Virus record (IMG/VR): IMGVR_UViG_3300043122_000070
Span: 1 to 22,388 of that record
Origin: a virus
Reading direction: 5' to 3' (one strand)
Length of the DNA stretch: 22,388 nt
Below, piece after piece: positions 1 through 13,372 of this stretch. Under the pieces are notes generated by a model. It was given only the letters and a program-made list of their open reading frames with translations. It was not told where the DNA came from and did no database searches. Numbering within the stretch: the first letter of the stretch is position 1; each line of letters begins with the position of its first letter. Made by a program: the position numbers and the translations under genes.

Positions 1-597
1 AGGGCACCCCTTAGGACACTCTATTGTACCTGCGATGCTTGCCATCCCCACACACCAATACGCTCCCCAGATAAATTAATAGACCTCAATAGAGCTTAAC
101 AGATAGCTCAATATCTCCCTACAAAGCTCCCTAACAAGCGTTCTCCTTAGCCTATACCAGCCTACAGGGTAGCTCGATAAGGCTTGTCAGAGGCTCAGGG
201 GGATGCTGATGGGCAGCTAGTGAGTAGGCTGTCTGGGATGCTATCGAGTAGCTAGTGAGTAGCTATGAGGTATGTCCGATGAGGATTTGGAGGCCACCCC
301 TCTTAGGAGGCGCTGGTGGGGGACTTAACCTAGGAGTACATTTTGAGCCTTTTGAGACCACCCCCTTCCTCCCTAGAAGCTCAATAGTGCTAATTTTTTG
401 GCGGTATTTTGAGACTTTTCCAAGCATTCTGCATAGTCTCCCTCTAAAGCACCTCAATAGCATCCTCACTATGGAAAGGGATAGCATACTAATGGGTATA
501 GCTGAGAGTTTGCTTATAAGGATACTGTCTAACTTAGTTGTCTAGTGTAGCTATGGAGCAGTATGATAAGGGATACTTGAGTATAGTCTTGCTAGTG
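1..597. other. Non-coding region left of the early block
   Basis: No open frame here has a Shine-Dalgarno sequence or a recognisable product, so I read this stretch as non-coding. It is rich in TAG/CTA triplets. It carries a 13-bp direct repeat, AGCTAGTGAGTAG, at 215-227 and 250-262, and three TTTTGAG words between about 340 and 415. Leftward transcription from the neighbouring block should mostly stop at the terminator at 713-736 before reaching it. I see no clear origin or attachment site. Confidence 0.5.
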
Positions 598-697
598 TCT
601 GTAGAGGATCTGTCATGCGACAGAGTGCCCTACGGGCTTAGCACGGTGTATAAGGGATTCCTTTAAGATGGGAGGATGAATCACATCATCTCCTCCC
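598..697. repeat. Structured repeat element, copy A
   Basis: This is one of two copies; copy B is at 14842-14940. In order it holds TCTGTAG, hairpin CTGTC-ATGC-GACAG (610-623), hairpin GCCC-TAC-GGGC (627-637), the invariant box GGTGTATAAGGGA (645-657), and a hairpin with arms GGGAGGA/TCCTCCC (670-676 and 691-697). Spacings match copy B to within a base or two. The second stem changes on both sides between copies while its TAC loop is kept, which suggests a conserved structure. The functional strand and role are unknown. Confidence 0.6.
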
Positions 698-712
698 TCT
701 TCTAGTGGTGCT

Positions 713-736
713 AAAAAGGGGACTTTGAATGTCCCC
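713..736 (-). terminator. Rho-independent terminator ending the leftward block
   Basis: On the minus strand GGGGAC (731-736) pairs with GTCCCC (718-723) around a 7-nt loop and is followed by five T residues (713-717). It lies about 55 nt beyond the stop of the last leftward gene. A second GTCCCC on the plus strand at 742-747 offers an alternative pairing. Confidence 0.75.
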
Positions 737-791
737 AAAATGTCCCCTAAAAAAGGTCTCTTTTCCCTAGTAAACATAATAATAGGAAAAA

Positions 792-1472
792 CTACTTCAG
801 CCACCTTGAGACTGTCTTCCTGCTCACTCCTAGTTTCTCTGCTATGTCCTTTACTTTCCAGCCTTTCTCCTTCAGTAACCCTGCCTGTTCACTAGGTGGT
901 AGGTCTGTGTTAATTGCCTTGTAGAGATGATCTACTCTCACTTCGTTCACATCAAGATCCATACGCAGCTTAGTGGCATTCTCTTTGAGAGCCTCTATTT
1001 CCTCGTGGATACCTTTGTAGAAGGACAACCTTTTCACAAGCTGAGTAACAGAGCGAGAGTTTGTTAGTGTGGCCTTGTCGAGGTGTCCTGAAGACTGGAT
1101 AGCTTTCTGAACAGGATGTTCTTTATGCATCTCATACACCTCCTTTGAGTGGTTGAACCTCTTGTGCTTAACTTCTTGTATCCACTCAGCATCCTTACCG
1201 AGACACTTTGCAGCTACCTCCATAGCCTCATTGTAAGATAGGTCATCCTCTAGTACGTGGTGGTATGCCCACTGACCAAACACTAAGGAGGGATAGTTGT
1301 ACTCCTTACCATCTGCTTTATCTTTCGTGGTGAGGTTTGCAAAGATAGCCTTTTGACGATGCTCCAAGTACCCCATGCAGTATTTCCTATCTAGTGTGCC
1401 TTCCTGAATCATCTGATCCATCTTGGAAGGCGGGATGTCGTCAAGTTCCCTATAGCTTGGTTTCTTTTCCAT
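792..1472 (-). CDS. Helix-turn-helix DNA-binding protein
   Basis: This is a 226-residue soluble protein and the last gene of the leftward block. The C-terminal 25 or so residues read as a helix-turn-helix, with WKVKDIAEKLGVSRKTVSRW typical of HTH domains in phage regulators and transposase-like proteins. Just before it (about residues 145-195) is a charged stretch of likely coiled coil that could mediate dimerisation. The first 140 residues match nothing I recognise. I chose the ATG at 1472 because AGAGGA lies just upstream; an upstream in-frame start would overlap the helicase gene. A role as a transcription regulator or DNA-organising protein is inferred only from the HTH. Confidence 0.75.
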   Translation of the reverse strand: MEKKPSYRELDDIPPSKMDQMIQEGTLDRKYCMGYLEHRQKAIFANLTTKDKADGKEYNYPSLVFGQWAYHHVLEDDLSYNEAMEVAAKCLGKDAEWIQEVKHKRFNHSKEVYEMHKEHPVQKAIQSSGHLDKATLTNSRSVTQLVKRLSFYKGIHEEIEALKENATKLRMDLDVNEVRVDHLYKAINTDLPPSEQAGLLKEKGWKVKDIAEKLGVSRKTVSRWLK

Positions 1473-1500
1473 TTTTAGTCCTCTGAGAGTGGGTTTGTTC

Positions 1501-2961
1501 CTACTGCACGGTTGATAATGCCTCTGTGGACTCTGATACTTTGCCACAAGTGATACTACTAGCAATCTCTAAGACCTCTACAGCTCGTGTAAGTGCTACG
1601 TACAGGAGGTTACGCTCTGGGTCACTCCGGCTACCTGATTCATCGGTATCTGGGTAATCATCAGCAATTACCACTTGATCCCACTGCCGTCCTTTACTCT
1701 TGTGTGCTGTGGTGAGAAGAACATCATAGTCTTCACGAGAGGTCTTCTTGACCTCTGCGAGGTACTTGATGAACATACCCGATAGACCCTTCTCTGTGAT
1801 CTGTGCAGCACGTTTGATATCAGGGTTGAAATCACCAGCTTCCATGAACATACTCCACGACTGATAGGGAGCTACGTCAGGATGCTTCACCTTGCGCATA
1901 TCACCTTTGAAGAGTGCTTGTGCAGACTCAAGAAGTTTGATTAGATTGGTGGCATCTACTTCGCACTTCACCTTCTTGCCCTCTTTGACAAGCTCAACAG
2001 CTTCTGACAGGAGAAGCCCATTAGTCCGATAGATCTTCGTGTAGGGCTTGCTCATATCCACTTCACCTACTACAGATTTGATCTTAGGGTTGCCTTTAAT
2101 CTCGATAGCACCGTCAATCATGTCAGTGGCCTCATCAGCAATCTCTTGGCCATATCGGAAGGACATGGAGAGGATTCGTGTAGGTGCGTTCACTTGCTCC
2201 ATAGCATCAACTGCACCACGGAACTGATAGATGCTCTGATAGGTGTCCCCTACGTAGCACACCTTAGCGTGTTCCTGTTTGCGTACAATGTCGAGTACTA
2301 CAGGGTTGGTATCCTGAGCTTCATCGAGATAGATGATGTCGTAATCCAGACGTGGGGAGCTAAGGTGCCACATCTTCAGGTAAGTATCGTGAGACGCCAA
2401 TACATCTGAGTCTACATCAGTACGATCCTCCCAGAACTTCTTAGTGATCTTCTGGACTTCCTTACGGACAGCTTTGAGATCAAGTACATCATACATCTTG
2501 CAGAGTTCTTTCAGCTTTGCTGTAGGACAGTGGTGCATTGCCACAACTTTGTCAGCAGACTGTTCAAAACGCTTAATAGTGTGGTACACCAGTGTGGCGA
2601 TAGCCAGTGCGGGCATCTCTTCAAAGTCTTTAATGCGGTAGTATTGCATGATCTCTGAAGGAGTGCCTGCTACGTTCACGTAACCGCCTCGTGGACGACT
2701 CATCTTGTGGCGGATCTTGCTACCAAACTCTGCGTAAGCCAGTGAGTGTGTTGTACGGCACTCTACGTGGTTAGGGAAGCGTTCAGACGCCTCTGTGGCG
2801 ATGGACTTGTTGAAGGCCATATACAGGCTTGGTTTGCGGTAGGCTGCGGCAAGAAGCTCCAAAGTGCTCGTCTTGCCGCTACCTGCCACTGCGTTTACTT
2901 TCATGACTCGTGTATCAGCGAAGTCTTTGATGATGATCTCTTGTTCGGTTGTCGGTTTCAT
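1501..2961 (-). CDS. UvrD/Rep-like superfamily 1 DNA helicase
   Basis: This 486-residue protein carries the ordered motifs of an SF1A (UvrD/PcrA/Rep-type) ATP-dependent DNA helicase. Walker A is AVAGSGKT at residues 24-31. Motif Ia is around MAFNKSIA (residues 48-55). Walker B is YLDEAQD (about 211-217). Motif III is VGDTYQSIYQFRG (about 237-249). Motif IV includes SFRYGQEIA. Motif V is TTAHKSKGRQWD. Motif VI is LLYVALTRA near the C-terminus. It is shorter than host UvrD (about 720 residues), as usual for phage versions such as Dda-like helicases. The ATG at 2961 follows a strong AGGAGGA; an 18-residue upstream extension has no such site. It probably acts in phage DNA replication or recombination. 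Confidence 0.93.
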   Translation of the reverse strand: MKPTTEQEIIIKDFADTRVMKVNAVAGSGKTSTLELLAAAYRKPSLYMAFNKSIATEASERFPNHVECRTTHSLAYAEFGSKIRHKMSRPRGGYVNVAGTPSEIMQYYRIKDFEEMPALAIATLVYHTIKRFEQSADKVVAMHHCPTAKLKELCKMYDVLDLKAVRKEVQKITKKFWEDRTDVDSDVLASHDTYLKMWHLSSPRLDYDIIYLDEAQDTNPVVLDIVRKQEHAKVCYVGDTYQSIYQFRGAVDAMEQVNAPTRILSMSFRYGQEIADEATDMIDGAIEIKGNPKIKSVVGEVDMSKPYTKIYRTNGLLLSEAVELVKEGKKVKCEVDATNLIKLLESAQALFKGDMRKVKHPDVAPYQSWSMFMEAGDFNPDIKRAAQITEKGLSGMFIKYLAEVKKTSREDYDVLLTTAHKSKGRQWDQVVIADDYPDTDESGSRSDPERNLLYVALTRAVEVLEIASSITCGKVSESTEALSTVQ

Positions 2962-2986
2962 TCTATATCCTCCTTGTTGGTTAATC

Positions 2987-3460
2987 TCAATAAACCCTAT
3001 CAACGTGCTTCTCAATGAAGTCTACCTTACCTTCCTCGTAGCAGTCAAGGAACATCTCCCCTATAGTGTGCCCACAAGAGCACTTAAGAGGTTCTCCCAT
3101 ACTATACCCGCAGCATCCATACCCACTAATGAACGCTGGGATGATACCTTCCAGAACACTCTTCTCAGATACTACCAAGGTGTCCTCAGTGGCTTTCAGG
3201 ATCTGTGCGGGCGTATCATCACAAAACTTGTTAGCAGATGCCTTGTCACCACGTCTCTTGAAGAAGAGTCCCCTCTTTACCTTGTACTCTTGGAAGTAAA
3301 CATCGCCATCCTCATCAACGATCCCTCCTGTGGTATCGAAGACTGCTCCAGAGTTCTTGACGAGCTTCCTGCCTGACAGGCGAGACTCCTCCCAAACCAC
3401 TTTCACTTGGTAGAGATCCTCTGTCAGGGTCTTCTTGCACTTTGAGCATTGTAGCTTCAT
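2987..3460 (-). CDS. Cys-rich protein with possible zinc ribbon
   Basis: This is a 157-residue protein of unknown function. An N-terminal CSKC at residues 5-8, a GYGCCGYS stretch near residue 115 and KCSCGH near residue 127 could together bind a zinc ion. The rest is charged and soluble, with no signal peptide or membrane segment. AGGAGGA precedes the start, and the ATG overlaps the stop of the upstream gene (ATGA), so translation is probably coupled. Confidence 0.8.
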   Translation of the reverse strand: MKLQCSKCKKTLTEDLYQVKVVWEESRLSGRKLVKNSGAVFDTTGGIVDEDGDVYFQEYKVKRGLFFKRRGDKASANKFCDDTPAQILKATEDTLVVSEKSVLEGIIPAFISGYGCCGYSMGEPLKCSCGHTIGEMFLDCYEEGKVDFIEKHVDRVY

Positions 3461-3936
3461 AAATCCTCCTTGTACATTCCCGTCAGCTTCTTCTTTCCTT
3501 CCAGATACCCGACCTCTTGTTGTGCCCGCTCGACCTCTGAGGAATACTCATCCCACTTGACCCTCAAGTACTTGTTTTCATCTCCCGTCATGTTGAGGTG
3601 ATCTGATGGCGTCCAATCATCTGGAAAGATAGTTCCTTTCAGAATAAGACCTGTCTTGGAGTCCTGAATGAGATCCTCGTAACACCTCATACGATCATTG
3701 TGGTCAAGAACACCTAATGTCCTATGCCAGCACTCCTCAAGGAGCTTTTGGTAGTGGCTGCTAAGGTTGTCCTTCACGAAGAGGTCATCTTTCTCAACGT
3801 ATGCTAGATGGAACACCTTCCACCTTCCTTCCTCCGTGAACGTTCGTGCTATCGTCAAGATAGGCTCTGAGATAACAGGCTGAATCTCTTCAGGTTCCTT
3901 TGAAGCTTCCTTCCGTAACCATTTAAACATGTTCAT
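3457..3936 (-). CDS. Hypothetical protein, 159 aa
   Basis: The product is not recognised. It is a soluble, acidic protein with a short basic N-terminus (MNMFKWLRKE) and a charged, probably helical C-terminus. Two ATGs are possible. The one at 3936 overlaps the upstream stop as ATGA but lies directly against AGGAGGAGGA. The one at 3930 has more usual spacing and gives 157 residues. The gene sits in a tightly overlapping operon of small early genes, so an accessory, host-directed role is plausible but unproven. Confidence 0.75.
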   Translation of the reverse strand: MNMFKWLRKEASKEPEEIQPVISEPILTIARTFTEEGRWKVFHLAYVEKDDLFVKDNLSSHYQKLLEECWHRTLGVLDHNDRMRCYEDLIQDSKTGLILKGTIFPDDWTPSDHLNMTGDENKYLRVKWDEYSSEVERAQQEVGYLEGKKKLTGMYKEDL

Positions 3937-4142
3937 TCCTCCTCCTTAATATACCTGTTAACTTCTTCCCAGCACTCATCACTGTCAAGGAAGCAATGGT
4001 CTGTGTAGACCATCTTCTCCGCACACTTGTCACAGTATACCCCAGACTGCATTGCGTAGGTGTACTCGTAGACGATGGAATATACAGGTGTTCCCAAGTC
4101 TTCCTCTTCCGTTAGGATGTGCCCACAAGATGCTTGAATCAT
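3933..4142 (-). CDS. Small Cys-containing protein, 69 aa
   Basis: A short acidic protein with SCGH near its N-terminus and YCDKC in the middle, a spacing compatible with a single zinc site. No family was recognised. The ATG at 4142 follows TAGGAGGA; an in-frame start eight codons upstream has no SD. The stop overlaps the next gene's start as ATGA. Confidence 0.75.
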   Translation of the reverse strand: MIQASCGHILTEEEDLGTPVYSIVYEYTYAMQSGVYCDKCAEKMVYTDHCFLDSDECWEEVNRYIKEEE

Positions 4143-4150
4143 AAATCCTC

Positions 4151-4351
4151 CTATCGTGTGACCCAATTAGTAATCCACTGAATAACCCCAATCGGAGCAG
4201 CTACACAGGGGATCATTACGAGCATGATTGCCCAGACCTTCTTAGTATTCCTCACCTCGCTTCCTTCATCAACAGCTACCCTACTGGCGATTGCTAAGAG
4301 GCTTGCTCCTGCACAGTGCCAAACGAATAGCACTTTGAAGATATCTATCAC
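4151..4351 (-). CDS. Small membrane protein, two TM segments
   Basis: A 66-residue protein with two hydrophobic segments, about residues 4-25 and 41-62, separated by a short charged loop (DEGSEVRNTKK). This predicts a small inner-membrane hairpin protein. GAGGAGGT precedes the start. Function is unknown; lysis, superinfection exclusion and host-membrane modification are general possibilities only. Confidence 0.75.
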   Translation of the reverse strand: MIDIFKVLFVWHCAGASLLAIASRVAVDEGSEVRNTKKVWAIMLVMIPCVAAPIGVIQWITNWVTR

Positions 4352-4563
4352 AGTACCTCCTCATCAATAATACTACCAACTTGCACCTCTACGATATCCT
4401 CTACACCAAACCCATAAGCATTGACAGAGCCTCTGACAATCCCCTCTTTCTTGAGGTGCTCCCAGATACCCTCTTCGTTCACAGAATCTTCTGAGTAGAT
4501 ACTCCGTAGAATAGTTGCTCGGCTAGTGTTGTGGTTGGTGCCGTGTACAGTCCATATCTTCAT
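4348..4563 (-). CDS. Hypothetical protein, 71 aa
   Basis: A small acidic soluble protein of unknown function. The ATG at 4563 follows GAGGAGGAC at good spacing and is preferred over an in-frame ATG 12 codons upstream without an SD. The stop overlaps the downstream membrane-protein gene as ATGA. Confidence 0.75.
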   Translation of the reverse strand: MKIWTVHGTNHNTSRATILRSIYSEDSVNEEGIWEHLKKEGIVRGSVNAYGFGVEDIVEVQVGSIIDEEVL

Positions 4564-4598
4564 TATCCAGTCCTCCTCAATAGTTATCCTCACCAGCA

Positions 4599-4627
4599 AT
4601 CCTACACAGCATCCTGTGCTTTGTCAA
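4599..4627 (-). promoter_or_regulatory. Candidate sigma-70 promoter, leftward
   Basis: Reading leftward, a perfect TTGACA (4622-4627) is followed after 17 nt by TAGGAT (4599-4604). It overlaps the last codons of the 46-residue gene and would drive the gene starting at 4563. The -10 matches consensus at four of six positions. Confidence 0.45.
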
Positions 4628-4742
4628 GCTCTTGGCGCTTCTTAATGTACAGTACAAGGCCGGCCACTAAGAGTGCTAGCATGAATGGTGAGAGAAGTAA
4701 GAGAGGCTTGAATGGGCCTGCTGCCATGAATAGCTCTATCAT
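4602..4742 (-). CDS. Short single-TM protein, 46 aa
   Basis: The coding frame starts MIELFMAAGPF, continues with a hydrophobic span (about residues 11-32) and ends with a basic-acidic tail, KKRQELDKAQDAV. This predicts one transmembrane helix. GAGGAGGA precedes the ATG, and the ATG overlaps the upstream stop (TGATG), so coupled translation is likely. It is easily missed because of its size. Function is unknown. Confidence 0.65.
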   Translation of the reverse strand: MIELFMAAGPFKPLLLLSPFMLALLVAGLVLYIKKRQELDKAQDAV

Positions 4743-5107
4743 CACTTATCCTCCTCAGTTACTTGTACGTTTGCATGTGTAGCTGCATGCCACTCATCCC
4801 ACCTCACAGGCTTCTCATCAGACTCTCTCATCTTGGCTACGTAGTTTCTGTAAAGCTCTAGCATCACCTCCTCGGGGGCTACTAGCGGCCCTGCTGGGCA
4901 GGGGTCTTCTTCACAGACTCTTAGCATGTGTCGTGCCCAGTCTTCTTTGCTCATAGTTTGATCCTCCGCAAGTTTTCGATAAGCTTCTTCATAACGCTCA
5001 AAGGAACGCTTACAAGCTTCTTCCAGTTGCTTCTTGTGGTCTCCTTCCGAGGGAGATGCTTTAGAGCAAGCTCCTTCAGGGCGTGGTGGTATTGTCAGCT
5101 TCTTCAT
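4742..5107 (-). CDS. Hypothetical protein, 121 aa
   Basis: A soluble, strongly charged and probably helical protein of unknown function, with a Pro-rich N-terminus and several cysteines. GAGGATC precedes the start. It is the first gene after the terminator/promoter module at 5136-5213 and so heads a small transcription unit. Confidence 0.75.
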   Translation of the reverse strand: MKKLTIPPRPEGACSKASPSEGDHKKQLEEACKRSFERYEEAYRKLAEDQTMSKEDWARHMLRVCEEDPCPAGPLVAPEEVMLELYRNYVAKMRESDEKPVRWDEWHAATHANVQVTEEDK

Positions 5108-5135
5108 AGCTTGATCCTCATCAGTGTGTCCCCTG

Positions 5136-5164
5136 AAGATACAGCTCTACAGCATTCCTGTCAA
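5136..5164 (-). promoter_or_regulatory. Sigma-70 promoter, leftward
   Basis: Leftward TTGACA (5159-5164), a 17-nt spacer and TATCTT (5136-5141) lie directly downstream of a terminator and upstream of the gene starting at 5107. The placement in a true intergenic gap supports it. Confidence 0.6.
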
Positions 5165-5176
5165 GCCTCTAGATAC

Positions 5177-5213
5177 GAAAAAGCCGGAACACCCGCTGTG
5201 AGGCATTCCGGCT
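5177..5213 (-). terminator. Rho-independent terminator, leftward
   Basis: Minus-strand AGCCGGAA (5206-5213) pairs perfectly with TTCCGGCT (5182-5189), closing a 16-nt loop, and is followed by a run of T. It sits just past the stop of the gene at 5223-5444 and before a new promoter, so it separates two transcription units. Confidence 0.8.
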
Positions 5214-5222
5214 AGGTGCTGT

Positions 5223-5444
5223 TTAGTTATCTGTCAGCACTTCTTTCTCATAAATATCCCACAGATCCTTTGTACTCAGCTCTGCAAGCTCTTCCTCAGT
5301 CTTATCAGTGGTCTCAGCAATCTGTGGAATGACATCCTTACGGAAATTAGCTGTGTCGAATGCCATGTCAAATCGTGAGAAGAACTTCTTATTGCTTGCA
5401 CGGGACTTGATAGGATTATTGGTGATGTCATTACGAGCACTCAT
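5223..5444 (-). CDS. Hypothetical protein, 73 aa
   Basis: A small soluble protein with a basic N-terminal third (KSRASNKKFFSR) and an acidic C-terminal two thirds. Function is unknown. GGAGGAG precedes the ATG. The start overlaps the stop of a possible 17-codon leader as ATGA. It is the last gene before the terminator at 5177-5213. Confidence 0.78.
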   Translation of the reverse strand: MSARNDITNNPIKSRASNKKFFSRFDMAFDTANFRKDVIPQIAETTDKTEEELAELSTKDLWDIYEKEVLTDN

Positions 5445-5494
5445 TCAGTCTCCTCCATAGTTTCCATCAAGTAGTCGTGGTCAGTGTTTTCCAA
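5441..5494 (-). CDS. Possible 17-codon TTG-start peptide
   Basis: A TTG codon at 5494 has AGGAGGAGG about seven bases upstream and opens a frame encoding LENTDHDYLMETMEETE. The frame ends in TGA overlapping the ATG of the next gene. The SD plus the stop/start overlap, in a gap with no other gene, suggests a coupling leader or mini-protein. Its size makes chance hard to exclude. Confidence 0.4.
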   Translation of the reverse strand: MENTDHDYLMETMEETE

Positions 5495-5508
5495 GTCTTA
5501 TCCTCCTC

Positions 5509-5718
5509 CTAGTAAAAGTCTTCTGGGGATTTCTCACCAGTAACCAATGAAACCCCGTCCTTTATAGTCAGCTTACGGGTATTGATCAGCTTCCACCCAC
5601 AAGCTTCTTCCGTAGCAGCTTGGAAATCTTCCTCAGATTCGTACCTGCTTAGGACTTCTCGTTGGTGTTCTGTCAACTGTATGGGAGAGTAAAAGCAGTA
5701 CCACCAACGAGTCTTCAT
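5509..5718 (-). CDS. Hypothetical protein, 69 aa
   Basis: A small soluble protein beginning MKTRWWYCFYSP, with unusually dense aromatic residues, followed by an acidic, probably helical middle. Function is unknown. TGGAGGA precedes the ATG. Confidence 0.77.
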   Translation of the reverse strand: MKTRWWYCFYSPIQLTEHQREVLSRYESEEDFQAATEEACGWKLINTRKLTIKDGVSLVTGEKSPEDFY

Positions 5719-5741
5719 AAGATTGTTCCTCCAGTAGTCCT

Positions 5742-6023
5742 TTAGTGTTTCTTCTGAGCCTTCTCAAGCTTTGCTATCACAATGTCCATCTTATCTTCAA
5801 ATGCTTGCTTCTCATCAGCAGCTTCTTGGTAGATCTTCCCCAGTGTACACCGTGTAGTGATTAATGCAAGCTCCTTGTCACTGATAGCTATCTCTTCTAC
5901 CACTTCACCAGTGTCATTCATCTCTTGCATGTATTCCCAATCAATCTCTCCCCAGATAGCTTCGAGGTGCTTCTTGTCGAACTCTGAGAGGATCTCTGGA
6001 GAGTCTTCTTCGAAGCTGTTCAT
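5742..6023 (-). CDS. Hypothetical acidic protein, 93 aa
   Basis: An acidic, largely helical soluble protein; its last 30 or so residues (EDKMDIVIAKLEKAQKKH and before) are compatible with a coiled coil. Function is unknown. The ATG at 6023 follows TAGGAGT and overlaps the upstream stop as ATGA; the in-frame ATG 19 codons earlier would lie inside the upstream gene. Confidence 0.75.
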   Translation of the reverse strand: MNSFEEDSPEILSEFDKKHLEAIWGEIDWEYMQEMNDTGEVVEEIAISDKELALITTRCTLGKIYQEAADEKQAFEDKMDIVIAKLEKAQKKH

Positions 6024-6214
6024 ACTAAGACTCCTAATACTTTTGATGAGGCGATTGCTACAATGGTCATTACCCAGCACATTGCAGCAATCATGTTGTA
6101 CGTGTTGCTATCAATCTTGAAAGCCTTCTTGAAAGGCAGCCCTGCTACGTAGTAGATAACTCCAAGCCCTAACGAGACTATGAGAGCAATGATGAGATCT
6201 TCGAGAGTGGTCAT
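6020..6214 (-). CDS. Small membrane protein, two TM segments
   Basis: A 64-residue protein with hydrophobic spans at about residues 5-26 and 42-63 and a basic loop (PFKKAFK) between them. By the positive-inside rule the loop should be cytoplasmic. AAGGAGGA precedes the ATG at 6214. Function is unknown. Confidence 0.75.
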   Translation of the reverse strand: MTTLEDLIIALIVSLGLGVIYYVAGLPFKKAFKIDSNTYNMIAAMCWVMTIVAIASSKVLGVLV

Positions 6215-6227
6215 AACGTTTCCTCCT

Positions 6228-6533
6228 TCAGTTAGTGTGTAACATTTCGATAATCTCTTCGTAAATAATATCTTCGCCTCCGCCTTTCGGTGCAGGGTTT
6301 TCAATACGCACCTGTTCAACAAACTTCATTGCCCATGCCAGAGATGATCGGAGTTTTTCTAATTGCTTGTCCTTGCTGTTAATGAGGTCAACGGCCATCT
6401 CGTGAATGTTACCGTCGTAATCACATTCTAAATCATCTCCGTACTCTTCTTTGTTGACAGGATAGCCATACGTATCAAGCATCCCCTCCGCTTGCAGTTT
6501 ATCTCGCAGTGATTTGTAACTGTAGTACGCCAT
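6228..6533 (-). CDS. Hypothetical protein, 101 aa
   Basis: A soluble protein with a Tyr/Lys-rich start, an acidic middle and a helical C-terminus; not recognised. AAGGAGGA precedes the ATG. A 19-bp sequence containing that SD and the preceding bases is repeated in front of the next gene (6221-6239 and 6540-6558). A promoter at 6566-6594 lies just upstream. Confidence 0.77.
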   Translation of the reverse strand: MAYYSYKSLRDKLQAEGMLDTYGYPVNKEEYGDDLECDYDGNIHEMAVDLINSKDKQLEKLRSSLAWAMKFVEQVRIENPAPKGGGEDIIYEEIIEMLHTN

Positions 6534-6565
6534 CTCAAATCCTCCTTCAGTTAGTGTGCAGAGTC

Positions 6566-6594
6566 ATCTTAGGACTTCCTTGCCCTGCTGTCAA
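6566..6594 (-). promoter_or_regulatory. Sigma-70 promoter, leftward
   Basis: Leftward TTGACA (6589-6594), a 17-nt spacer and TAAGAT (6566-6571) lie in the 67-nt gap upstream of the gene starting at 6533. The first promoter of the block (14786-14815) has the same -35 and -10 hexamers. Confidence 0.6.
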
Positions 6595-6600
6595 GAACTT

Positions 6601-6798
6601 TTACACAAAGTCTTCGTGGACAACCTCGTTAGTTAGGATGTTGAAGATGTGCCCAAAATTGTAGCCGTCCTCACGAGGTGCCATCAGAGAGTATAGGAAC
6701 ATCTTAGCTTCTTCAAGCTCATCAAAGTCTTGGAAGAAATCATCCATGCCTCCTAGAGGATGCTCTGCATTGAAAGCAAATACCATGTAAGTCTTCAT
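6601..6798 (-). CDS. Hypothetical protein, 65 aa
   Basis: A short acidic protein starting MKTYMVFAFNAEHPLGG, which looks like one beta strand followed by helix. Function is unknown. AAGGAGC precedes the ATG, and the upstream stop TAA overlaps the ATG by one base. It is the last gene before the gap containing the promoter at 6566-6594. Confidence 0.75.
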   Translation of the reverse strand: MKTYMVFAFNAEHPLGGMDDFFQDFDELEEAKMFLYSLMAPREDGYNFGHIFNILTNEVVHEDFV

Positions 6799-7025
6799 TA
6801 GCTATGCTCCTTAAAGAATGTGTTGTACAGGCTCTCTAGTCCAATATCCTTGTTAGTGTCCCACTGCTCACACCTCCGCAGATACTCCCCAAGAGCCTCA
6901 TTAGTTTGAGCTAGTGCAGCTCGCATCTCTGCAAGATCTTTACAGACCTCTCTGAAAGCTGTGTCCAGCTCAGATTCACTGTAAGGGACTGGCAGGGGCT
7001 TGTTAAGGGTTTCTTTTAGGCTCAT
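6798..7025 (-). CDS. Hypothetical helical protein, 75 aa
   Basis: A mostly helical, charged protein; residues 18-55 could form a coiled coil. Not recognised. TAAGGAG precedes the ATG, and that SD overlaps the stop of the 40-residue gene upstream. Confidence 0.75.
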   Translation of the reverse strand: MSLKETLNKPLPVPYSESELDTAFREVCKDLAEMRAALAQTNEALGEYLRRCEQWDTNKDIGLESLYNTFFKEHS

Positions 7026-7038
7026 CTTAAAGTTCTCC

Positions 7039-7161
7039 TTAAGGTTGCTTGAACTTCTTCACACGGGCCTTCTTCTTAGGCTTCTCACGAGTCTCCCCTT
7101 CCAGCCAGTCTTGAGGGACACGCTGCTCAGCTTCTTTCTCGTACTTCTCGTCGATGATCAT
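7039..7161 (-). CDS. Small basic-tailed protein, 40 aa
   Basis: A 40-codon frame starting MIIDEKYEKEAEQ and ending in a strongly basic tail (EKPKKKARVKKFKQ). Its ATG overlaps the upstream stop as ATGA, AGGTGG lies at SD distance, and it fills an otherwise empty gap. The basic tail could contact nucleic acid, but function is unknown. It is easy to miss because of its length. Confidence 0.65.
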   Translation of the reverse strand: MIIDEKYEKEAEQRVPQDWLEGETREKPKKKARVKKFKQP

Positions 7162-7409
7162 ACCACGCCACCTGTGAAGTTAATCTGGAAGGCTTTGTTG
7201 CGAAGCATCTTACCAGTCTTCCGGCTGAAGATATCCATGTGATGAGTAGTGTTTCCTTTGATAGTGTCTACGTAGCACATCACTTGTAGATTCTCACGGG
7301 CCTCGTCAGTAGTCCAACTATTCTCTTTCATCAGCTCTTTCAACTCACCCTCTTGCCATTCCAGTAAGGCATTCGCAGCTTCCCTGTAGAGTTCTTCGTG
7401 TAGACTCAT
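7158..7409 (-). CDS. Hypothetical protein, 83 aa
   Basis: A soluble protein with a helical acidic N-terminal half and a C-terminal half richer in beta-type residues. Unrecognised. GAGGAGGA precedes the ATG, and both ends overlap neighbours by ATGA-type junctions. Confidence 0.77.
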   Translation of the reverse strand: MSLHEELYREAANALLEWQEGELKELMKENSWTTDEARENLQVMCYVDTIKGNTTHHMDIFSRKTGKMLRNKAFQINFTGGVV

Positions 7410-7705
7410 TCTTCTTCCTCCTCAATCTTCATAGCATTCAAGAAGAACATCGTCTCGTATCCTCTGCCACACTGCATGTCAATCATCACAGCAGTGTAAT
7501 CTTCAAGCTCCTCTACAAACCGTACATAGCCGCTGAAAGTATCCCCTTCTCCACTCAGGAGATCCTCTTTGGTGCCATTTGTAAAGCACGCTTCAGAGTC
7601 TCCCTGCATCCAGTAGCCTTCGTGGTAGTCCACTTGTAGGTTCCAATAGTCTACACTGTCCTCGTACTGCTTGATAGCTTCGTAAAGGTTTCCTTTAGTT
7701 TTCAT
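7406..7705 (-). CDS. Hypothetical acidic protein, 99 aa
   Basis: An acidic soluble protein ending in a run of glutamates (MKIEEEEE). The glutamate run is partly created by the GAGGAGGAAG sequence that serves as SD for the next gene. Function is unknown. The ATG at 7705 follows GGGAGGA, and I prefer it over an in-frame start five codons upstream. Confidence 0.76.
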   Translation of the reverse strand: MKTKGNLYEAIKQYEDSVDYWNLQVDYHEGYWMQGDSEACFTNGTKEDLLSGEGDTFSGYVRFVEELEDYTAVMIDMQCGRGYETMFFLNAMKIEEEEE

Positions 7706-7962
7706 TCTTCTTCCTCCCAAGCATTCTTGACAATTTTATTTTCAGCCTCTTGAGACCATGCTTCCCAGATCTCACGAACACCTTCCGAGCCTACCAATAC
7801 GTCAATGTCATACTGATGAATCGGATCAGATCGTCGCAAGTAGTTCCTATCATTGAACGCCATACGTTTAGTCTGACAGCGTTCCACCATAACACGCTCA
7901 ATAGATCCGTCCGAGTGGTGTACGAGCTTCACTACACGGTAGGGGAAGGTGCTCTTGAACAT
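7702..7962 (-). CDS. Hypothetical protein, 86 aa
   Basis: A soluble protein with a basic N-terminal half (Arg/Lys-rich, for example RVMVERCQTKRMAF) and an acidic C-terminus ending WEEEE, where the SD for the next gene is again encoded. Not recognised. AGAGGA precedes the ATG. Confidence 0.76.
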   Translation of the reverse strand: MFKSTFPYRVVKLVHHSDGSIERVMVERCQTKRMAFNDRNYLRRSDPIHQYDIDVLVGSEGVREIWEAWSQEAENKIVKNAWEEEE

Positions 7963-7966
7963 CTTG

Positions 7967-8500
7967 TTAGTCCTCTTGGTTGAGTTCTAGCCAGCGATTG
8001 AGTGTATCACGTGCCTCGCGGATATCATCCCATTTACTCTTACCACCTGTGCGGACTCCTGACAGCAGGAGCTTCTTGGAAGCATGTTGGATAGCACCTG
8101 ACGGGTCATCTACAGAGAACAGTTTGTGGACTCCATAGACATCCAAGGATGTAATCTCAGAGACATCTTTGTAGTACTTTGGGTAGAGCTTACAAACATC
8201 TTCTGAGGACTGTTCGGACTTGGAAGCTTTCTCAATCTCCACAGCTTCTTCGAGAGATGCTTTTAGATCCAAAAAGAGCTTGTTGGGACGCTTATGGAGT
8301 ACCGTGTGGTCATACCCAGAACCTGCATTGGTTATATACCAACACTCCTCGTCGGGGCCATCATCTGTACATACCCAATCTCCGTTAAAACCCTTCAGAA
8401 GGGGTTCGTGAGTATAAGCCCACAGCTCCCCGTCTGAATCTAGCGCACAGAAGTTCGCCTCCTCTGGGATATTATTCCAATCCACTGTAAGTAATTTCAT
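7967..8500 (-). CDS. Hypothetical phage protein, 177 aa
   Basis: A soluble protein. The C-terminal 55 or so residues (from SLDVYGVHKLFSVDDPSGA to DIREARDTLNRWLEL) resemble a short helical module I associate with uncharacterised phage proteins, in the pattern AxQHAxKKLL followed by DIxEAxDTLxRWLE; I cannot assign it a reaction. The N-terminal 70 residues are rich in Trp, Cys and acidic residues. GAGGAGGA precedes the ATG. It is one of the larger non-endonuclease genes of the block. Confidence 0.8.
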   Translation of the reverse strand: MKLLTVDWNNIPEEANFCALDSDGELWAYTHEPLLKGFNGDWVCTDDGPDEECWYITNAGSGYDHTVLHKRPNKLFLDLKASLEEAVEIEKASKSEQSSEDVCKLYPKYYKDVSEITSLDVYGVHKLFSVDDPSGAIQHASKKLLLSGVRTGGKSKWDDIREARDTLNRWLELNQED

Positions 8501-8512
8501 AAGTATTCCTCC

Positions 8513-8713
8513 TCAGTTCTTTTGATTTCGCTTGTCAGCGTCTGCTGTGCTACTAAGACTAACACCCATCCCAGCAACACTCAAGAAGTTTTTACAAGAA
8601 TCTGGAGAGCCGTTTGAGTAGTCTGTGTAGGTGGTGCTTCCGAAGTTTGGGGTCATCCTATATTTCAAACAGCTTTCTCTACGGGAGCACTTGTATTGGT
8701 CACATAGTATCAT
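8513..8713 (-). CDS. Small Cys-rich protein, 66 aa
   Basis: Four cysteines (CDQYKC, ESC and DSC) in the first 41 residues could form a small metal site. The tail is Ser/Asp/Lys-rich. Function is unknown. GGAGGG lies upstream of the ATG, and the ATG overlaps the upstream stop as ATGA. Confidence 0.73.
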   Translation of the reverse strand: MILCDQYKCSRRESCLKYRMTPNFGSTTYTDYSNGSPDSCKNFLSVAGMGVSLSSTADADKRNQKN

Positions 8714-8850
8714 TCTCGGACACCCTCCGTGACGGAATCTTGGAGGTCTTCCAGCTCCTCCTGAGCCTCCAGAAGCATCTTAGCAAGCTGGTAGGCGCTG
8801 TACTTCTCGGTGAGATCAACAGCATCTTCGTGGGTCTTGAAATTATTCAT
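8710..8850 (-). CDS. Small coiled-coil protein, 46 aa
   Basis: An acidic, fully helical-looking protein with heptad-like spacing of hydrophobics. The ATG at 8850 has TAAGGAG at good spacing. Both the SD and the first codons lie inside the 3' end of the HNH gene, so translation depends on sequence kept within that gene. Function is unknown. Confidence 0.68.
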   Translation of the reverse strand: MNNFKTHEDAVDLTEKYSAYQLAKMLLEAQEELEDLQDSVTEGVRE

Positions 8851-9652
8851 AAGTGTTCTCCTTAAATTGTTCCTGTTGGCTTTCTGCGAAGTCAACCCCA
8901 TGGTAAGGATGTTCTGGGTGTTTGTCAAGCATTTCTTTCAGTGTTCTTTTTGCCTCGTTAATATCCTTCGCATGTCTCCGAACCCTCTTCCCTTGAATTA
9001 TCAGCGTCACCACCCATGCGTCTCTATTTTCACGCATCGAGATGTAACGGTATCCAGAGGGCGTATTGGCTTCCAGTGTTTTGACTGGTTTTGCACGTTC
9101 CTGTCTTTTCTCCCCGTGCCCCGATGAGAACCCATGTAATTCTCGGAAAGATTTTACAGCGGAAACCGCATCCTCTTTTTCGTCAAAGTACCCTAAGTTT
9201 CTGGTGATATTTTTGTACGTTCCATGGGCGACCCATTTAGAATAATTTGGGTACCAGCTCACACCTGAAAATCCAGATGAGTTGTCTTTCCTGAGAGATG
9301 CATTGCGTGTGTTTTCCTCAAAAGTAATGATTCTTAGGTTACACCACCTGTTATCATCTCCTTGCCTGTTTATATGATCTATCACGTATCCGTGGTCTGG
9401 CCACTCCCCTTTCATATAAAACCACGCCAATTGGTGTTCCGGCACTAGTGTACCTAAAAGACCAACGCAACGTTTTAAATACCCTCCTCTGTTTTGCACA
9501 GAACCCGCCCGCTTCCCAACGCGGGCTTTTCCGGAGGGTGTGGAAGCGTCTGGGTGAGATCTCCATGTAAACACCCCAGTCTCACAACTGTATGAAAGTC
9601 GTGCTCTGACATACTCTTGGGTAACAACTTTTCGAAATTCATCTATTTTCAT
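8843..9652 (-). CDS. HNH homing endonuclease with AP2-like domains
   Basis: This is a 269-residue free-standing HNH endonuclease. Its N-terminus resembles the SYSCETGVFTWRS lead-in seen in phage HNH proteins. The HNH core runs from EHQLAWFYMKGEWPDHG through VIDHINRQGDDNRWCNLR to ENTRN (about residues 80-125). Two AP2-like DNA-binding segments follow, one at SGFSGVSWYPNYSKWVAHG and one at SGYRYISMRENRDAWVV. Such proteins cleave DNA to copy themselves into related phages. I prefer the ATG at 9652 after GAGGG. A TTG at 9679 or ATG at 9664, before and after an A10 tract, would add 9 or 4 residues. It is inserted between small early genes. Confidence 0.85.
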   Translation of the reverse strand: MKIDEFRKVVTQEYVRARLSYSCETGVFTWRSHPDASTPSGKARVGKRAGSVQNRGGYLKRCVGLLGTLVPEHQLAWFYMKGEWPDHGYVIDHINRQGDDNRWCNLRIITFEENTRNASLRKDNSSGFSGVSWYPNYSKWVAHGTYKNITRNLGYFDEKEDAVSAVKSFRELHGFSSGHGEKRQERAKPVKTLEANTPSGYRYISMRENRDAWVVTLIIQGKRVRRHAKDINEAKRTLKEMLDKHPEHPYHGVDFAESQQEQFKENTYE

Positions 9653-9679
9653 ACCATCCCTCATTTTTTTTTTAGACAA

Positions 9680-10378
9680 CTACAGGTTTTCAAAAGTTGA
9701 GATCAGAGTTTGGGGAAATCCTTTTAATCTATATCCAGCTTCTGTTAGATGGTAGTCGTAACCCAAACCTCCTATTACCTTACAAACATCCTCTACCTGA
9801 TTGTCGTCTACCCAACCTTCGAGCATCTTCTGGCCTTCCTCATCTTCTTGGACATACACCCCGTAGGTCTCAAGTATCTCCAAGTTAGCTTCCTTGACAA
9901 ACATCCCCATTATCATGCAACCGCCACGATCCTTGATATCCTCCCAAGCCACCTCAACACATTCTTGAAGGCTCCATTCCTTACTCTCTGCGTAGCGCTC
10001 CAGAGCCTCTACATAGTAACCCACCTCTTTGAGGATTTCAACAGAATTATTGTGCTTAGGATCTTGTGAGATCTCCACCATCCATTCGAGGCTGTTGAGA
10101 CACTGTCCGATGTTGCTCTTGAGGCTATCCTCTTTGGGGAGGATGTCCCGTACAGCATAACGTGCAAGGGAGGCTGTACTGCCAAGAATCCCTGCGATCA
10201 TTGAGAGGACAACGTATTGATCCCCTAATGAGTCTTTGTCATCATCTGTTAGCATCTCTTCGTACTCTTGGCGCAACTTTTTACATTGAGCACTCACACG
10301 TTTCATACGGTTCTCTTGAGTGGTTACTGTGATACCCCTCTCGTGGCCCCACTGTAGGATTGAGTTCTCTCTTTTCAT
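9680..10378 (-). CDS. MazG-like nucleotide pyrophosphohydrolase
   Basis: This 232-residue protein carries the signature of the MazG / all-alpha NTP pyrophosphohydrolase superfamily, which hydrolyses NTPs or alarmones to the monophosphate and pyrophosphate. Visible elements are ILQWGHERGIT (residues 7-17), the metal-binding QEYEEM (about 37-42) and DSLGDQYVVL (about 49-58). The late segment runs from WSLQECVEVAWEDIKDRGG to FVKEANLE. Usual phage forms are about 100-130 residues. Here an extra helical stretch of some 70 residues separates the DxxGD region from the AWEDIKDR region, and about 60 unassigned residues follow. GAGGAGGA precedes the ATG, which overlaps the upstream stop as ATGA. Confidence 0.75.
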   Translation of the reverse strand: MKRENSILQWGHERGITVTTQENRMKRVSAQCKKLRQEYEEMLTDDDKDSLGDQYVVLSMIAGILGSTASLARYAVRDILPKEDSLKSNIGQCLNSLEWMVEISQDPKHNNSVEILKEVGYYVEALERYAESKEWSLQECVEVAWEDIKDRGGCMIMGMFVKEANLEILETYGVYVQEDEEGQKMLEGWVDDNQVEDVCKVIGGLGYDYHLTEAGYRLKGFPQTLISTFENL

Positions 10379-11112
10379 ATTTCCTCCTCGTTGTTTTTCA
10401 GGTCGCTCTCGTAAGAAGTTGATTTAATCTTACCATAAAATTTAATCTCAGCATCCTCCCGCGCCTTGATTGCCTCTTCAAGGCTGTGAGTGCAAAGCAA
10501 GTGGTATTGCTCCCCTCCGTGGCTGATAACAGCTTGGTAGGTTGGATTCTCGGGATTTGAATACGATGTCTCTGTGACTCCAGTCCTCCCTGTTTTATTA
10601 CTCTTAAATCTCCGTCTATTATATGCCTGATCAGCACTACTGGACCACTTGCAATTCTCGGGAGAATAGTTCCCGTTGGAGTCTATCCTATCCAAGGAAA
10701 GTCCTGCTTCGGGTTGTCCCATATCCTCAATGAAATTCGTCACGCCAGTGTCTTTATCCAACCACCGATCACACACCCTGATACCACGGCCGCCGTAGTA
10801 CCTATAGTTTTCGTCATTTGGATTATAACACCGACGTTTCATCATTGTATAGGATTTATAGGCTCTAGTCTTTGTAAGGCCGTGCTTTCTGCACCTATCT
10901 ACCACAGTTTTTGTCAAAAGACACCCACATGACTTTGAGCCTTTGCCGATGTTACCAAAACGTAACACTTTAGTTTTTCCACACTCGCAGATCACTTCCA
11001 CTTGCCGCACCCGCTTACCTTTAGGGGAGACAACAGGTTCTACATCTCTTAGGAAGGTCAGTTGTGTTCCTTCGAACTTGTGACCTTTAGTTAATTCTAT
11101 TTTGTATTTCAC
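10375..11112 (-). CDS. HNH/AP2-type phage endonuclease-like protein
   Basis: This is a 245-residue protein of a family common in phages and usually annotated as HNH endonuclease or AP2-domain protein. It has a small Cys motif, CECGKT...SCGCL (about residues 41-65). The conserved block follows, with YGGRGIRVCDRW, then FIEDMGQPEAGLSLDRID and NGNYSPENCKW. A C-terminal GRTGV segment is AP2-like. It starts with GTG after AAGGAGG at long spacing. It is paralogous to the gene at 12235-12927. Its 3' end contains the SD of the MazG-like gene. A self-mobilising nuclease role is inferred from the family; catalysis in this sub-type is not certain. Confidence 0.8.
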   Translation of the reverse strand: MKYKIELTKGHKFEGTQLTFLRDVEPVVSPKGKRVRQVEVICECGKTKVLRFGNIGKGSKSCGCLLTKTVVDRCRKHGLTKTRAYKSYTMMKRRCYNPNDENYRYYGGRGIRVCDRWLDKDTGVTNFIEDMGQPEAGLSLDRIDSNGNYSPENCKWSSSADQAYNRRRFKSNKTGRTGVTETSYSNPENPTYQAVISHGGEQYHLLCTHSLEEAIKAREDAEIKFYGKIKSTSYESDLKNNEEEI

Positions 11113-11132
11113 TGACTAGCAACCTCCTTAAG

Positions 11133-11345
11133 TTAAATATCCTCGTTGAGTCGTCTGAGTTTTCTTATCAGACCCAAGAGGTCAGCCCTCTCAGTCACCC
11201 CTACGTCCATACTTGCTAATGATACGTTATACTCGATAAGGCTGTCAAGGCACATTTGAATCTCTCCAATATCCATAAACACTGTGTATGGGTGCTCACG
11301 GAACACTGGCGGGACTTTCCTCTCGGTGTCTGTATTGATCCACAT
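11133..11345 (-). CDS. Hypothetical protein, 70 aa
   Basis: A small soluble protein of unknown function with a helical C-terminus (RADLLGLIRKLRRL). CAGGAGA precedes the ATG. A good leftward promoter (11219-11248) lies inside this gene and points at the endonuclease gene downstream. Confidence 0.74.
   Translation of the reverse strand: MWINTDTERKVPPVFREHPYTVFMDIGEIQMCLDSLIEYNVSLASMDVGVTERADLLGLIRKLRRLNEDI
11219..11248 (-). promoter_or_regulatory. Sigma-70 promoter inside a gene, leftward
   Basis: Leftward TTGACA (11243-11248), an 18-nt spacer and TATCAT (11219-11224, five of six consensus bases). It would give a start near 11212 and transcribe the HNH/AP2-type gene and MazG-like gene separately from the rest of the operon. 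Confidence 0.5.
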
Positions 11346-11346
11346 G

Positions 11347-11679
11347 TCAGTTCTCCTGTTGACCGAACCTTTCGCGCATCTCTTTCTGAAACGCCTCGTT
11401 AGATTCTATTATAGCTTCAAGCTCTAAGAGTTTTTGTTTTTGGTTTGCCTTGCGCTCATCGTTAAGCTTCTTCTTAAACCTACTCCATTCAGCATCTTCA
11501 AGTTTTCCCACACGCTCGTCTAAGAAGTTGATGGTGCGACTATCACGTACGACACTGTGCGCTTCTTTCTGCACATACTCTCGGAGTTCTTCTTGAGCAA
11601 CACCATACGCACCATAGCAGATAGCACCTGCACCAATCACTGACAATACTGCTACTGAGTATTCTTTGAGTTCTTTCAT
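11347..11679 (-). CDS. Membrane-anchored coiled-coil protein, 110 aa
   Basis: An N-terminal hydrophobic segment (about residues 8-27, AVLSVIGAGAICYGAYGVA) is followed by a long, highly charged helical region rich in Glu, Lys and Arg, consistent with a membrane-anchored coiled coil. The topology resembles Rz-like spanins or small phage membrane proteins, but nothing specific supports a lysis role here. AAAGGAGA precedes the ATG. Confidence 0.75.
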   Translation of the reverse strand: MKELKEYSVAVLSVIGAGAICYGAYGVAQEELREYVQKEAHSVVRDSRTINFLDERVGKLEDAEWSRFKKKLNDERKANQKQKLLELEAIIESNEAFQKEMRERFGQQEN

Positions 11680-11691
11680 ATCATTTCTCCT

Positions 11692-11991
11692 TTAGTGTAT
11701 TGTAAAAAGACTGTCGTCTTCAGAAGTGTAATTTACGAAGTTACTAATCAGCTCAGCACGCTCTACATCAGAGTCCTCCACAATCATCTCTACAAAGGCA
11801 TCTCGCTTCTTCTCTGTAGAGAACGTGAACAGACGCTCAGGAGAGGACATGTAAGTGACTAGCACGTGGTGTAGCTCCATAGGATTCAACAGGTCTTCCA
11901 ATATCTCTGCTTGTTCCTCTGACAGCTCTGTTGAGGCAGATGCTATGTAGTTTCCATGAATGGAATAATCGTAGTAATCATCGCTGCTCAT
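11692..11991 (-). CDS. Hypothetical acidic protein, 99 aa
   Basis: An acidic soluble protein with a Tyr/Asp-rich start (MSSDDYYDYSIHG) and a helical middle. Not recognised. GGAG lies at SD distance, and the gene overlaps the upstream gene by 14 nt. Confidence 0.75.
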   Translation of the reverse strand: MSSDDYYDYSIHGNYIASASTELSEEQAEILEDLLNPMELHHVLVTYMSSPERLFTFSTEKKRDAFVEMIVEDSDVERAELISNFVNYTSEDDSLFTIH

Positions 11992-12238
11992 TAGTCACTC
12001 TCCGGTATGTGCTGTAGTCACCATCTTCAATCTGCTGAAGATTCCCTAGAATATACTCGTGGAACCTGTTCGGGTGTAGCTTTGAGTGTGCCTCACAGTA
12101 TTTGTACGCAGCAGGGATTCCCAAGTGGCTGTGAAGGAACTCCATAGTGCCGTCAGGAAGCACACCGTACGCCTCTACCCTTTTGTTGTTCTGCTTGTAT
12201 CCTTCTTGGAGTTCATCGAAGAGTTCTTGTGAGATCAT
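11978..12238 (-). CDS. Hypothetical protein, 86 aa
   Basis: A soluble protein with mixed charge, no membrane segment and no recognised motif. The ATG at 12238 follows AAGGAG and overlaps the stop of the upstream HNH/AP2-type gene as ATGA. The SD therefore lies inside the endonuclease gene's last codons. Confidence 0.74.
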   Translation of the reverse strand: MISQELFDELQEGYKQNNKRVEAYGVLPDGTMEFLHSHLGIPAAYKYCEAHSKLHPNRFHEYILGNLQQIEDGDYSTYRRVTNEQR

Positions 12239-12927
12239 TTTTCGCACTCCTTTATGTGTCCATAGACTTCTATTTCTGCTTCTTCTCTGGCACGAACTGC
12301 CTCGTCGAAGTCAGATGTCGTCAACAGCACCTTTAATTTACCATCTTTGCGGATGGCTGCCCTGTACTTAACAACCCCTTTTCTACTCACCACGATGTCA
12401 ACACCCGTCCTGCCTGACTTATTCTTGGGCCTCCGACGTTTATTAAACGATTGTTCTTTCACGCCCGCCCATTTACAGTTCTCCGGTGTATAGTCTCCAT
12501 TCACATCTTTCCTCTCTAAGGACGTCCCTTCTGGTCTTGGTCCAAGATCTTCTACAAAATTGACTACACCAGTTCCCTTCTCTCGCCACCTGTCGCAGAC
12601 TTGGATGCCTCGTCCCCCGTAGAGGTAATACTCAGCACAGTCCACTTTGTAACACCGTTTCATCATAGAGCCATAACTACTGTAAGCACCTGTTTGAGAT
12701 AGCCCATGTTTTCTATGACGTGCTGAGGATAGCTCAGAAGACAAGCACCCACAAGACCTGATAGACAAGTGCCTGACAGTTGCGACCGTTTTTATGCAAG
12801 TCTTTCCGCAGTCGCACAAGAACACACATTGTCTCTTCCCCAGCTTGGTATCCTCTGCTTCTCTTACGTAGCGTAATCTAGTCCCCTCGAACCTGTGTCC
12901 CAGACTGTATTCGTAACGTTTCTTCAC
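12235..12927 (-). CDS. HNH/AP2-type protein, paralogue of 10375-11112
   Basis: A 230-residue paralogue of the protein at 10375-11112. Shared features in the same order are GHRFEGTRL near the N-terminus, CDCGKT...SCGCL, the HGLSQTGAYSSY segment, YGGRGIQVCDRW, FVEDLGPRPEGTSLERKD, NGDYTPENCKW and C-terminal GRTGV with an AP2-like tail. It also uses a GTG start, here with GAGGAGGT. The family is associated with free-standing homing nucleases. One substitution to note is SLERKD where the relative has SLDRID. Confidence 0.8.
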   Translation of the reverse strand: MKKRYEYSLGHRFEGTRLRYVREAEDTKLGKRQCVFLCDCGKTCIKTVATVRHLSIRSCGCLSSELSSARHRKHGLSQTGAYSSYGSMMKRCYKVDCAEYYLYGGRGIQVCDRWREKGTGVVNFVEDLGPRPEGTSLERKDVNGDYTPENCKWAGVKEQSFNKRRRPKNKSGRTGVDIVVSRKGVVKYRAAIRKDGKLKVLLTTSDFDEAVRAREEAEIEVYGHIKECEK

Positions 12928-12942
12928 ATCTTACCTCCTCAG

Positions 12943-13185
12943 TCATTTTACAAAAGTCTCTACGTCGATAGAGGTGTCGAGTTCGGGGTAAACTCCCCAA
13001 TCTACGAGCTGTTCCAAGTCGTACCATTTGGCGTTCCACTTCACTTTGATATGGTGGCATTGGCCGCTGAACCACTGTACCTTGCCTCCACGTTGATTCA
13101 GGTAGTTGATCCGCTGATACTGCTTCGACAGGATAGCTTCACGGCGATCTTGTGGGTAGTACATAGAGCGTGCCTGTTGTAACAT
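12943..13185 (-). CDS. Hypothetical basic protein, 80 aa
   Basis: A soluble protein, basic and aromatic in its first two thirds (for example YPQDRREAILSKQYQRINY) and acidic at the end. It could bind nucleic acid, but no motif is recognised. TAGGAGA precedes the ATG. Confidence 0.75.
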   Translation of the reverse strand: MLQQARSMYYPQDRREAILSKQYQRINYLNQRGGKVQWFSGQCHHIKVKWNAKWYDLEQLVDWGVYPELDTSIDVETFVK

Positions 13186-13186
13186 A

Positions 13187-13372
13187 TTAGAAGTCTCCTA
13201 GTTGGTCTGCATTGGAATCAATGCTGTAGATTTGCACAACATCACTGTACTCGTAAGCGTCCTTCATCGAACTCATAGCATCCTGATAAGTAACTTCTAG
13301 GCTGTGAACCGCAGGTGAACGCACTCCGAAGGCACCTCTGACGAATGTAATTACCACGTAGTCATAGATCAT
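13187..13372 (-). CDS. Hypothetical protein, 61 aa
   Basis: A small soluble protein with a beta-type N-terminus (MIYDYVVITFVRG). Its start lies in the first of three identical junction cassettes. I chose the ATG at 13372, about seven bases after AGGAGGA, over the one at 13378 that abuts the SD. Function is unknown. Confidence 0.72.
   Translation of the reverse strand: MIYDYVVITFVRGAFGVRSPAVHSLEVTYQDAMSSMKDAYEYSDVVQIYSIDSNADQLGDF

Follow-up and report, generated by a model that had tools for sequence, protein, structure and literature searches.

Two copies of a noncoding intergenic unit of about 112 nt were found in the window, i.e. the whole 22,388-base IMG/VR record analyzed here and read as a bacteriophage fragment. 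In each copy, a nested hairpin (P1-P2-P3) comes first, followed by a TATAAGG box and then by a terminator-like hairpin (hairpin 3). The unit is duplicated and shows a fold preference, its hairpin 3 is inverted between the two copies, and the same layout occurs at one of the two sites (the A site) in one related lineage. It is probably a control element, most likely a transcription-stop signal. According to the preferred reading, to which we give a probability of roughly 40 %, the duplicated unit would act as RNA and would mark or make a transcript end, with its last hairpin serving as a two-way terminator.

Position and homology of the two copies

Copy A (588-700) and copy B (14832-14946), both on the plus strand, flank a block of small leftward genes (about 792-14810), one at each end. 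As the sequence-only reading had proposed, copy A lies past a predicted terminator-like site of this block (736-718, minus strand) and copy B is located immediately upstream of a promoter-like site that points leftward (14815-14786, minus strand; 10/12 match, consensus only). The last gene of the leftward block (792-1472, minus strand) encodes an HTH protein, and homologues are found in the same place in the related contigs G007 and G013 and in Nitrincola phage 1M3-16. The rightward block carries two tRNAs and a terminase gene that contains two group I introns; terminase relatives (L004-L010) show 72-82 % identity. The two terminase introns (20142-20369 and 20632-20856) are about 80 % alike over 114 nt and are accompanied by a homing endonuclease gene (19148-20062). 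Three HNH endonuclease genes (8843-9679, 10375-11112 and 12235-12927) are present in the leftward block.

Copies A and B are homologous, far above chance. Their local alignment over about 112 nt scored 60, the maximum in 2000 dinucleotide shuffles being 29, and self-BLAST matched 588-676 with 14832-14918 (74 %) and 664-699 with 14910-14946 on the opposite strand (89 %). The identical 13-nt box in the same orientation, which the sequence-only reading had noted, occurs without mismatch on the plus strand at 645-657 and 14888-14900. Counting the preceding C, it comprises 14 nt (CGGTGTATAAGGGA; 644-657 and 14887-14900 in the pattern scan). Since the homology of the copies spans about 112 nt, the box is the best-kept portion of a duplicated unit. 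When the window was scanned with up to two mismatches, three matches were obtained against 0.29 expected; the third (19979-19991) has two mismatches and is situated within a gene. The possibility that the box holds a phage-polymerase or sigma-70 promoter was rejected, as a -35 element does not stand at the right distance (by eye) and the late region has no extra copies.

The constant box flanked by two hairpins would also suit a small regulatory RNA or a cis leader, in which some partner would pair with or bind the box and hairpin 3 would be the RNA's own terminator. A weak promoter-like site that faces rightward and precedes copy A (409-437, plus strand; 9/12, with a total for the region no higher than in shuffles) and the tandem copies in G007 (see below) are in line with this explanation. 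However, no plus-strand promoter was predicted just upstream of copy B, the sole other box-like word is the mismatched one mentioned above, and no plus-strand gene follows copy A before the leftward block ends. We consider a small RNA or leader unlikely.

Predicted fold

On the plus strand, each copy is predicted to form one long imperfect hairpin before the box. In copy A (590-643), the helices P1 (590-595/638-643), P2 (600-604/630-634) and P3 (610-614/619-623) had pair probabilities of 0.85-1.00. The corresponding values in copy B (14835-14885; P1 14835-14839/14881-14885, P2 14844-14848/14873-14877, P3 14854-14858/14863-14867) were 0.98-1.00, except for the outer U.G pair of P2 (0.08). P1 reads GCTAG/TTAGC in copy A and GGTAG/CTACC in copy B. 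P2 (TGTAG/CTACG) reached 0.99-1.00 in both copies apart from the U.G pair of copy B, and is separated by an internal loop of 5 by 5-6 from P3 (CTGTC/GACAG), which has a 4-nt loop. The earlier description of the CTGTC/GACAG stem as invariant with a variable loop is accurate, the 4-nt loop being different in the two copies. When 15 pairs were compared between A and B, 13 were the same, one was changed on one side and one on both sides (P1, C-G to G-C).

The three-hairpin fold as drawn in the sequence-only reading was not predicted. Its stem 2 (GCCC/GGGC in A and CATC/GATG in B), which had been taken as a four-pair compensatory change around a TAC loop, had a pair probability of 0.00 in both copies. 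The invariant TAC belongs to the 3' strand of P2 and pairs with the invariant TGTAG, so the covariation of stem 2 is not that of a predicted structure.

For the stretch including the nested hairpin, the box and hairpin 3, fold z-scores on the plus strand were -3.86 for A (580-706) and -3.16 for B, and -2.76 and -3.06, respectively, on the minus strand; relative to shuffles, both strands thus fold significantly well, and no clear preference for one of them was seen. Shorter stretches of 111 nt gave weaker values (plus strand -2.19 for A and -1.42 for B; minus strand -2.50 and -1.01). P2, the internal loop (5 by 5 or 5 by 6) and P3 with its 4-nt loop recall an RNase III-type processing signal, the kind of irregular, internally looped hairpin known from T7 early RNA. 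The unit is not placed between genes of one transcript, which argues against such a signal; we consider it quite improbable here.

Inversion of hairpin 3

Hairpin 3 (664-701 in copy A and 14907-14946 in copy B) is inverted in one copy relative to the other. Hairpin 3 of A aligned locally with the reverse complement of that of B with a score of 52 over 37 nt, against 21 in direct orientation, and global alignment gave 22.5 (inverted) and 10.0 (direct), or 8.0 and -2.5 for the inner part. The flanks CTTTAAG and CTTCAAG remain in direct orientation. The small bulge does switch sides, as had been noticed before, and we reinterpret this as a consequence of the inversion of the hairpin between the copies. 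Judged from the two sequences, a single inversion would account for the moved bulge as well as for the loop of hairpin 3. Two independent deletions in opposite arms would explain the bulge and leave the loop unexplained.

In the predicted folds, hairpin 3 of both copies is GC-rich, as is the hairpin of an intrinsic terminator. A clean T run is missing in A and B, and neither hairpin was among the terminator predictions at the two sites. T-rich tails were seen by eye after the hairpins of G007 (TTTTCTTCT in the first unit and GGCTTTTT in the second). As a near palindrome usable from either strand, hairpin 3 may be a two-way terminator; if it works on both strands, it could be flipped without loss. 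Its inverted yet intact state fits a palindromic function.

The A site in related phages

The layout of the unit was observed at the A site, beside the HTH gene, in all three near relatives known to hold this site (G007, G013 and G014); most of the stem letters differ there, but pairing is kept. As these three are near-identical at the A site, they represent one lineage. The sequence-only reading had named a lack of conservation in close relatives as refutation; in this one lineage the layout is conserved.

In G007, the homologue of the HTH protein has 28 % identity, and the noncoding gap after its gene carries the unit (L160:381-505). This first G007 unit has the stems TGTTAA/TTAACA and TGTGC/GCACA; its box reads TTATAAGG, and TTTTCTTC comes after its hairpin. 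P2 and P3 are near-certain here also, according to pair probabilities, and the fold z-scores were -5.26 (plus strand) and -4.73 (minus strand). Because MAFFT aligned the stems of A, B and the G007-type units out of register, pairs were counted by hand; in this hand register, which covers one independent lineage, 9 of 15 pairs are changed on both sides between A and the first G007 unit and still pair. The G014 unit differs from that of G007 by a single loop change. The G013 unit shows seven substitutions, one deletion and one insertion, of which four substitutions are unpaired, two are in P1 (one changing U-A to U.G, the other breaking an outer pair) and the remaining one, together with the deletion, is in the outer flank of hairpin 3. 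The A site of G013 (L220) is a noncoding gap where genes of both strands converge. G013 and G014 are mosaic, as their helicase and HTH region is near-identical to that of G007 whereas their terminase is 45 % like that of the window, compared to 79 % in G007.

A second unit in tandem (L160:526) was found in G007, G013 and G014 with a descriptor of the layout. The descriptor was written after A, B and the first G007 unit were known, so only this second unit was a prediction. In plain sequence, the two G007 units are no more alike than expected by chance (154 of 1000 shuffles). The second one has a stronger z-score on the minus strand (-3.20) than on the plus strand (-2.09), with helix probabilities of only about 0.5-0.6. 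In the first G013 unit, the box taken by the descriptor is a neighbouring TATAAGG; the aligned box reads TATAGGG.

The setting of the A site would agree with a DNA element in both long noncoding gaps, namely a binding or replication-origin site, for example for the neighbouring HTH protein. An HTH gene adjoins the site in the window, G007, G013 and the Nitrincola phage, and a long noncoding gap is present there in these four and also in Acinetobacter phages. Folded as single-stranded DNA, copy A beats shuffles on both strands (z -2.99 and -3.34). However, copy B does not clearly do so (-1.04 and -1.24), the helices include G.U pairs, which are weak in DNA (the U.G in P1 of G013 is kept on the plus strand), and the stem letters vary freely across lineages, unlike those of a usual protein site. 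A DNA element is rather unlikely on this evidence.

Long noncoding gaps with many repeated short words were seen at the end of the helicase-HTH operon in the window (1-790) and in L159 (17110-18960). Acinetobacter phages (L158:9220, L164:7159, L239 ~2160, L240 ~2315 and L241 ~420) have a noncoding gap after the helicase/HTH genes with the constant flanks TTGTTTGCTCC...GCTTGATACGAGCATTA. The stem inside these flanks changes on both sides (TAAGAC/GTCTTA vs TGATC/GATCA) and has a variable loop, and it is a candidate for a separate structured RNA.

The B site in related phages

The unit is absent from the B site in four of the five relatives holding that site (G007, L005, L008 and L009; descriptor and reading by eye), a count taken without G013 and G014, whose B sites were not located. 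In the fifth, L004, a match of R1, a model built from copies A and B only, spans 3595-3728 with the hairpin-3 part alone aligned, and a nested hairpin was seen nearby by eye; a unit is possible at this site. As the B site is mostly empty in the relatives, copy B seems either to have arisen in the lineage of the window itself or to have been lost elsewhere. The B-site gap of L009 contains an 80 % direct repeat (785-921 and 958-1095) with a promoter-like TTGACA...TAGAAT.

The suggestion that the element bounds the leftward block applies to the window, where both ends carry it, but it is not general, given the B sites without the unit, the hairpin-3-like match only in L004 and the tandem position of the second copy in G007, G013 and G014. 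The same-orientation copies at both block ends of the window could also be read as direct repeats bounding a mobile block and letting it recombine out. The tandem arrangement at one end in the three relatives and the four empty B sites speak against this, and we regard it as very improbable.

Searches for further members

The descriptor was run over 3.98 Mb, a total that counts both strands and duplicate loci, and gave 458 matches, including 17 rows with a TATAA box. Sixteen of these rows correspond to eight units (two each in the window, G007, G013 and G014) and one is unrelated (L128). On shuffles of three regions, a match was obtained in 1, 1 and 0 of 1000. Box-bearing matches were absent in the more distant phages of the same gene order (Nitrincola, two Acinetobacter and Alteromonas).

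Model R1 matches 580-708 and 14824-14951 of the window by construction. With filters off (68,286 bases), it matched the A site at full length, in the right place and orientation, with marginal E-values of 0.014 (G014), 0.042 (G007) and 0.086 (G013); matches to the inverted hairpin 3 alone (E-values 0.0022-0.011) ranked above or among them. All ten matches in 19 sources (259,429 bases) were at the G014, G007 and G013 sites. In 28 whole records searched with the first-look filter, R1 was strong only in the window and weak in two named phages (0.10, 0.12 and 0.33), and the G007, G013 and G014 sites were missed.

The statement that no known family has this layout agrees with Rfam 15, in which the whole window matched only introns and tRNAs at gathering score; at E-values up to 5, the best matches (0.89, 0.76 and 2.4) were all far under gathering. 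When A and B were each used as BLAST queries against named phages, only short chance matches were obtained. Two sequence scans were discarded after inspection by eye: the pattern TCTGTAG...GGTGTATAAGGGA (one viral-contig match, in a gene, and six in genome contigs, none element-like) and exact CGGTGTATAAGGGA (55 viral stretches, none with the element). The window helicase as a single query found no relatives, and a helicase alignment recovered 53 loci at 34-48 % identity, none with a box-bearing descriptor match. The HTH alignment search recovered G007, G013 and G014 only, and the zinc-ribbon protein beside copy B was too divergent for a scan. No description of the unit was found in a literature search, which was shallow in depth and is not proof that the unit is undescribed.

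Proposed function

The sequence-only reading had listed a regulatory RNA, an RNA-processing signal, a protein-binding DNA element and a recombination site. A conserved structured noncoding element is supported, and with respect to its function the evidence leans to transcript ends at the RNA level. Our preferred reading is a lineage-specific transcript-end or boundary module that is probably read rightward; the convergent gap in G013, the T-rich tails in G007, the copying of the whole unit and the palindromic last hairpin fit a transcript-boundary module best. We infer that it is transcribed rightward (plus strand) and acts as RNA. At A, it would mark or make a transcript end at the point where transcription from the left runs into the leftward block, and at B where rightward transcription would cross the start of that block. 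The nested hairpin may be a stabilising, processing or protein-binding portion of the same RNA.

A wider claim would be that of a new phage noncoding RNA family, with a nested hairpin, a TATAAGG box and a reversible terminator flipping in place, which marks the transcript boundaries of the early block and is duplicated as a whole, either in tandem or to the opposite end of the block; we consider this doubtful. If the transcript-boundary reading is right, a phage lineage copies and reshapes such a module as one unit, and a natural example of in-place hairpin inversion within a single genome is at hand. The unit would then also be an element open to testing in a group of uncultured phages with otherwise unannotated noncoding gaps; as long as there is no cultured relative, its practical reach is limited.

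Comparison with known systems

The unit is not a new system. The put RNAs of phage HK022 are a phage-encoded pair of hairpins with two copies per genome; they are situated just downstream of early promoters and act on the transcript reading into genes. The unit is likewise a phage-encoded pair of hairpins in two copies per genome, but A and B are neither just downstream of early promoters nor reading into genes. The literature search for put papers found none. In T7 early RNA, the RNase III processing signals are irregular hairpins with an internal loop. The unit resembles them in this respect, a likeness which comes from its predicted fold, and differs in lying outside a polycistronic message. 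Small hairpin inversions reported from chloroplast genomes are similar in that a hairpin is flipped in place between related copies, whereas here the two copies are within one phage genome.

The bidirectional intrinsic terminators of converging operons also have a GC-rich, nearly palindromic hairpin within a noncoding gap, as the unit does where the leftward block ends. In contrast to them, the T runs of A and B are imperfect, and the last hairpin comes after an additional nested hairpin and a constant box, which are copied along with it. Such terminators are orientation-free, which fits the inversion of hairpin 3 between the two copies.
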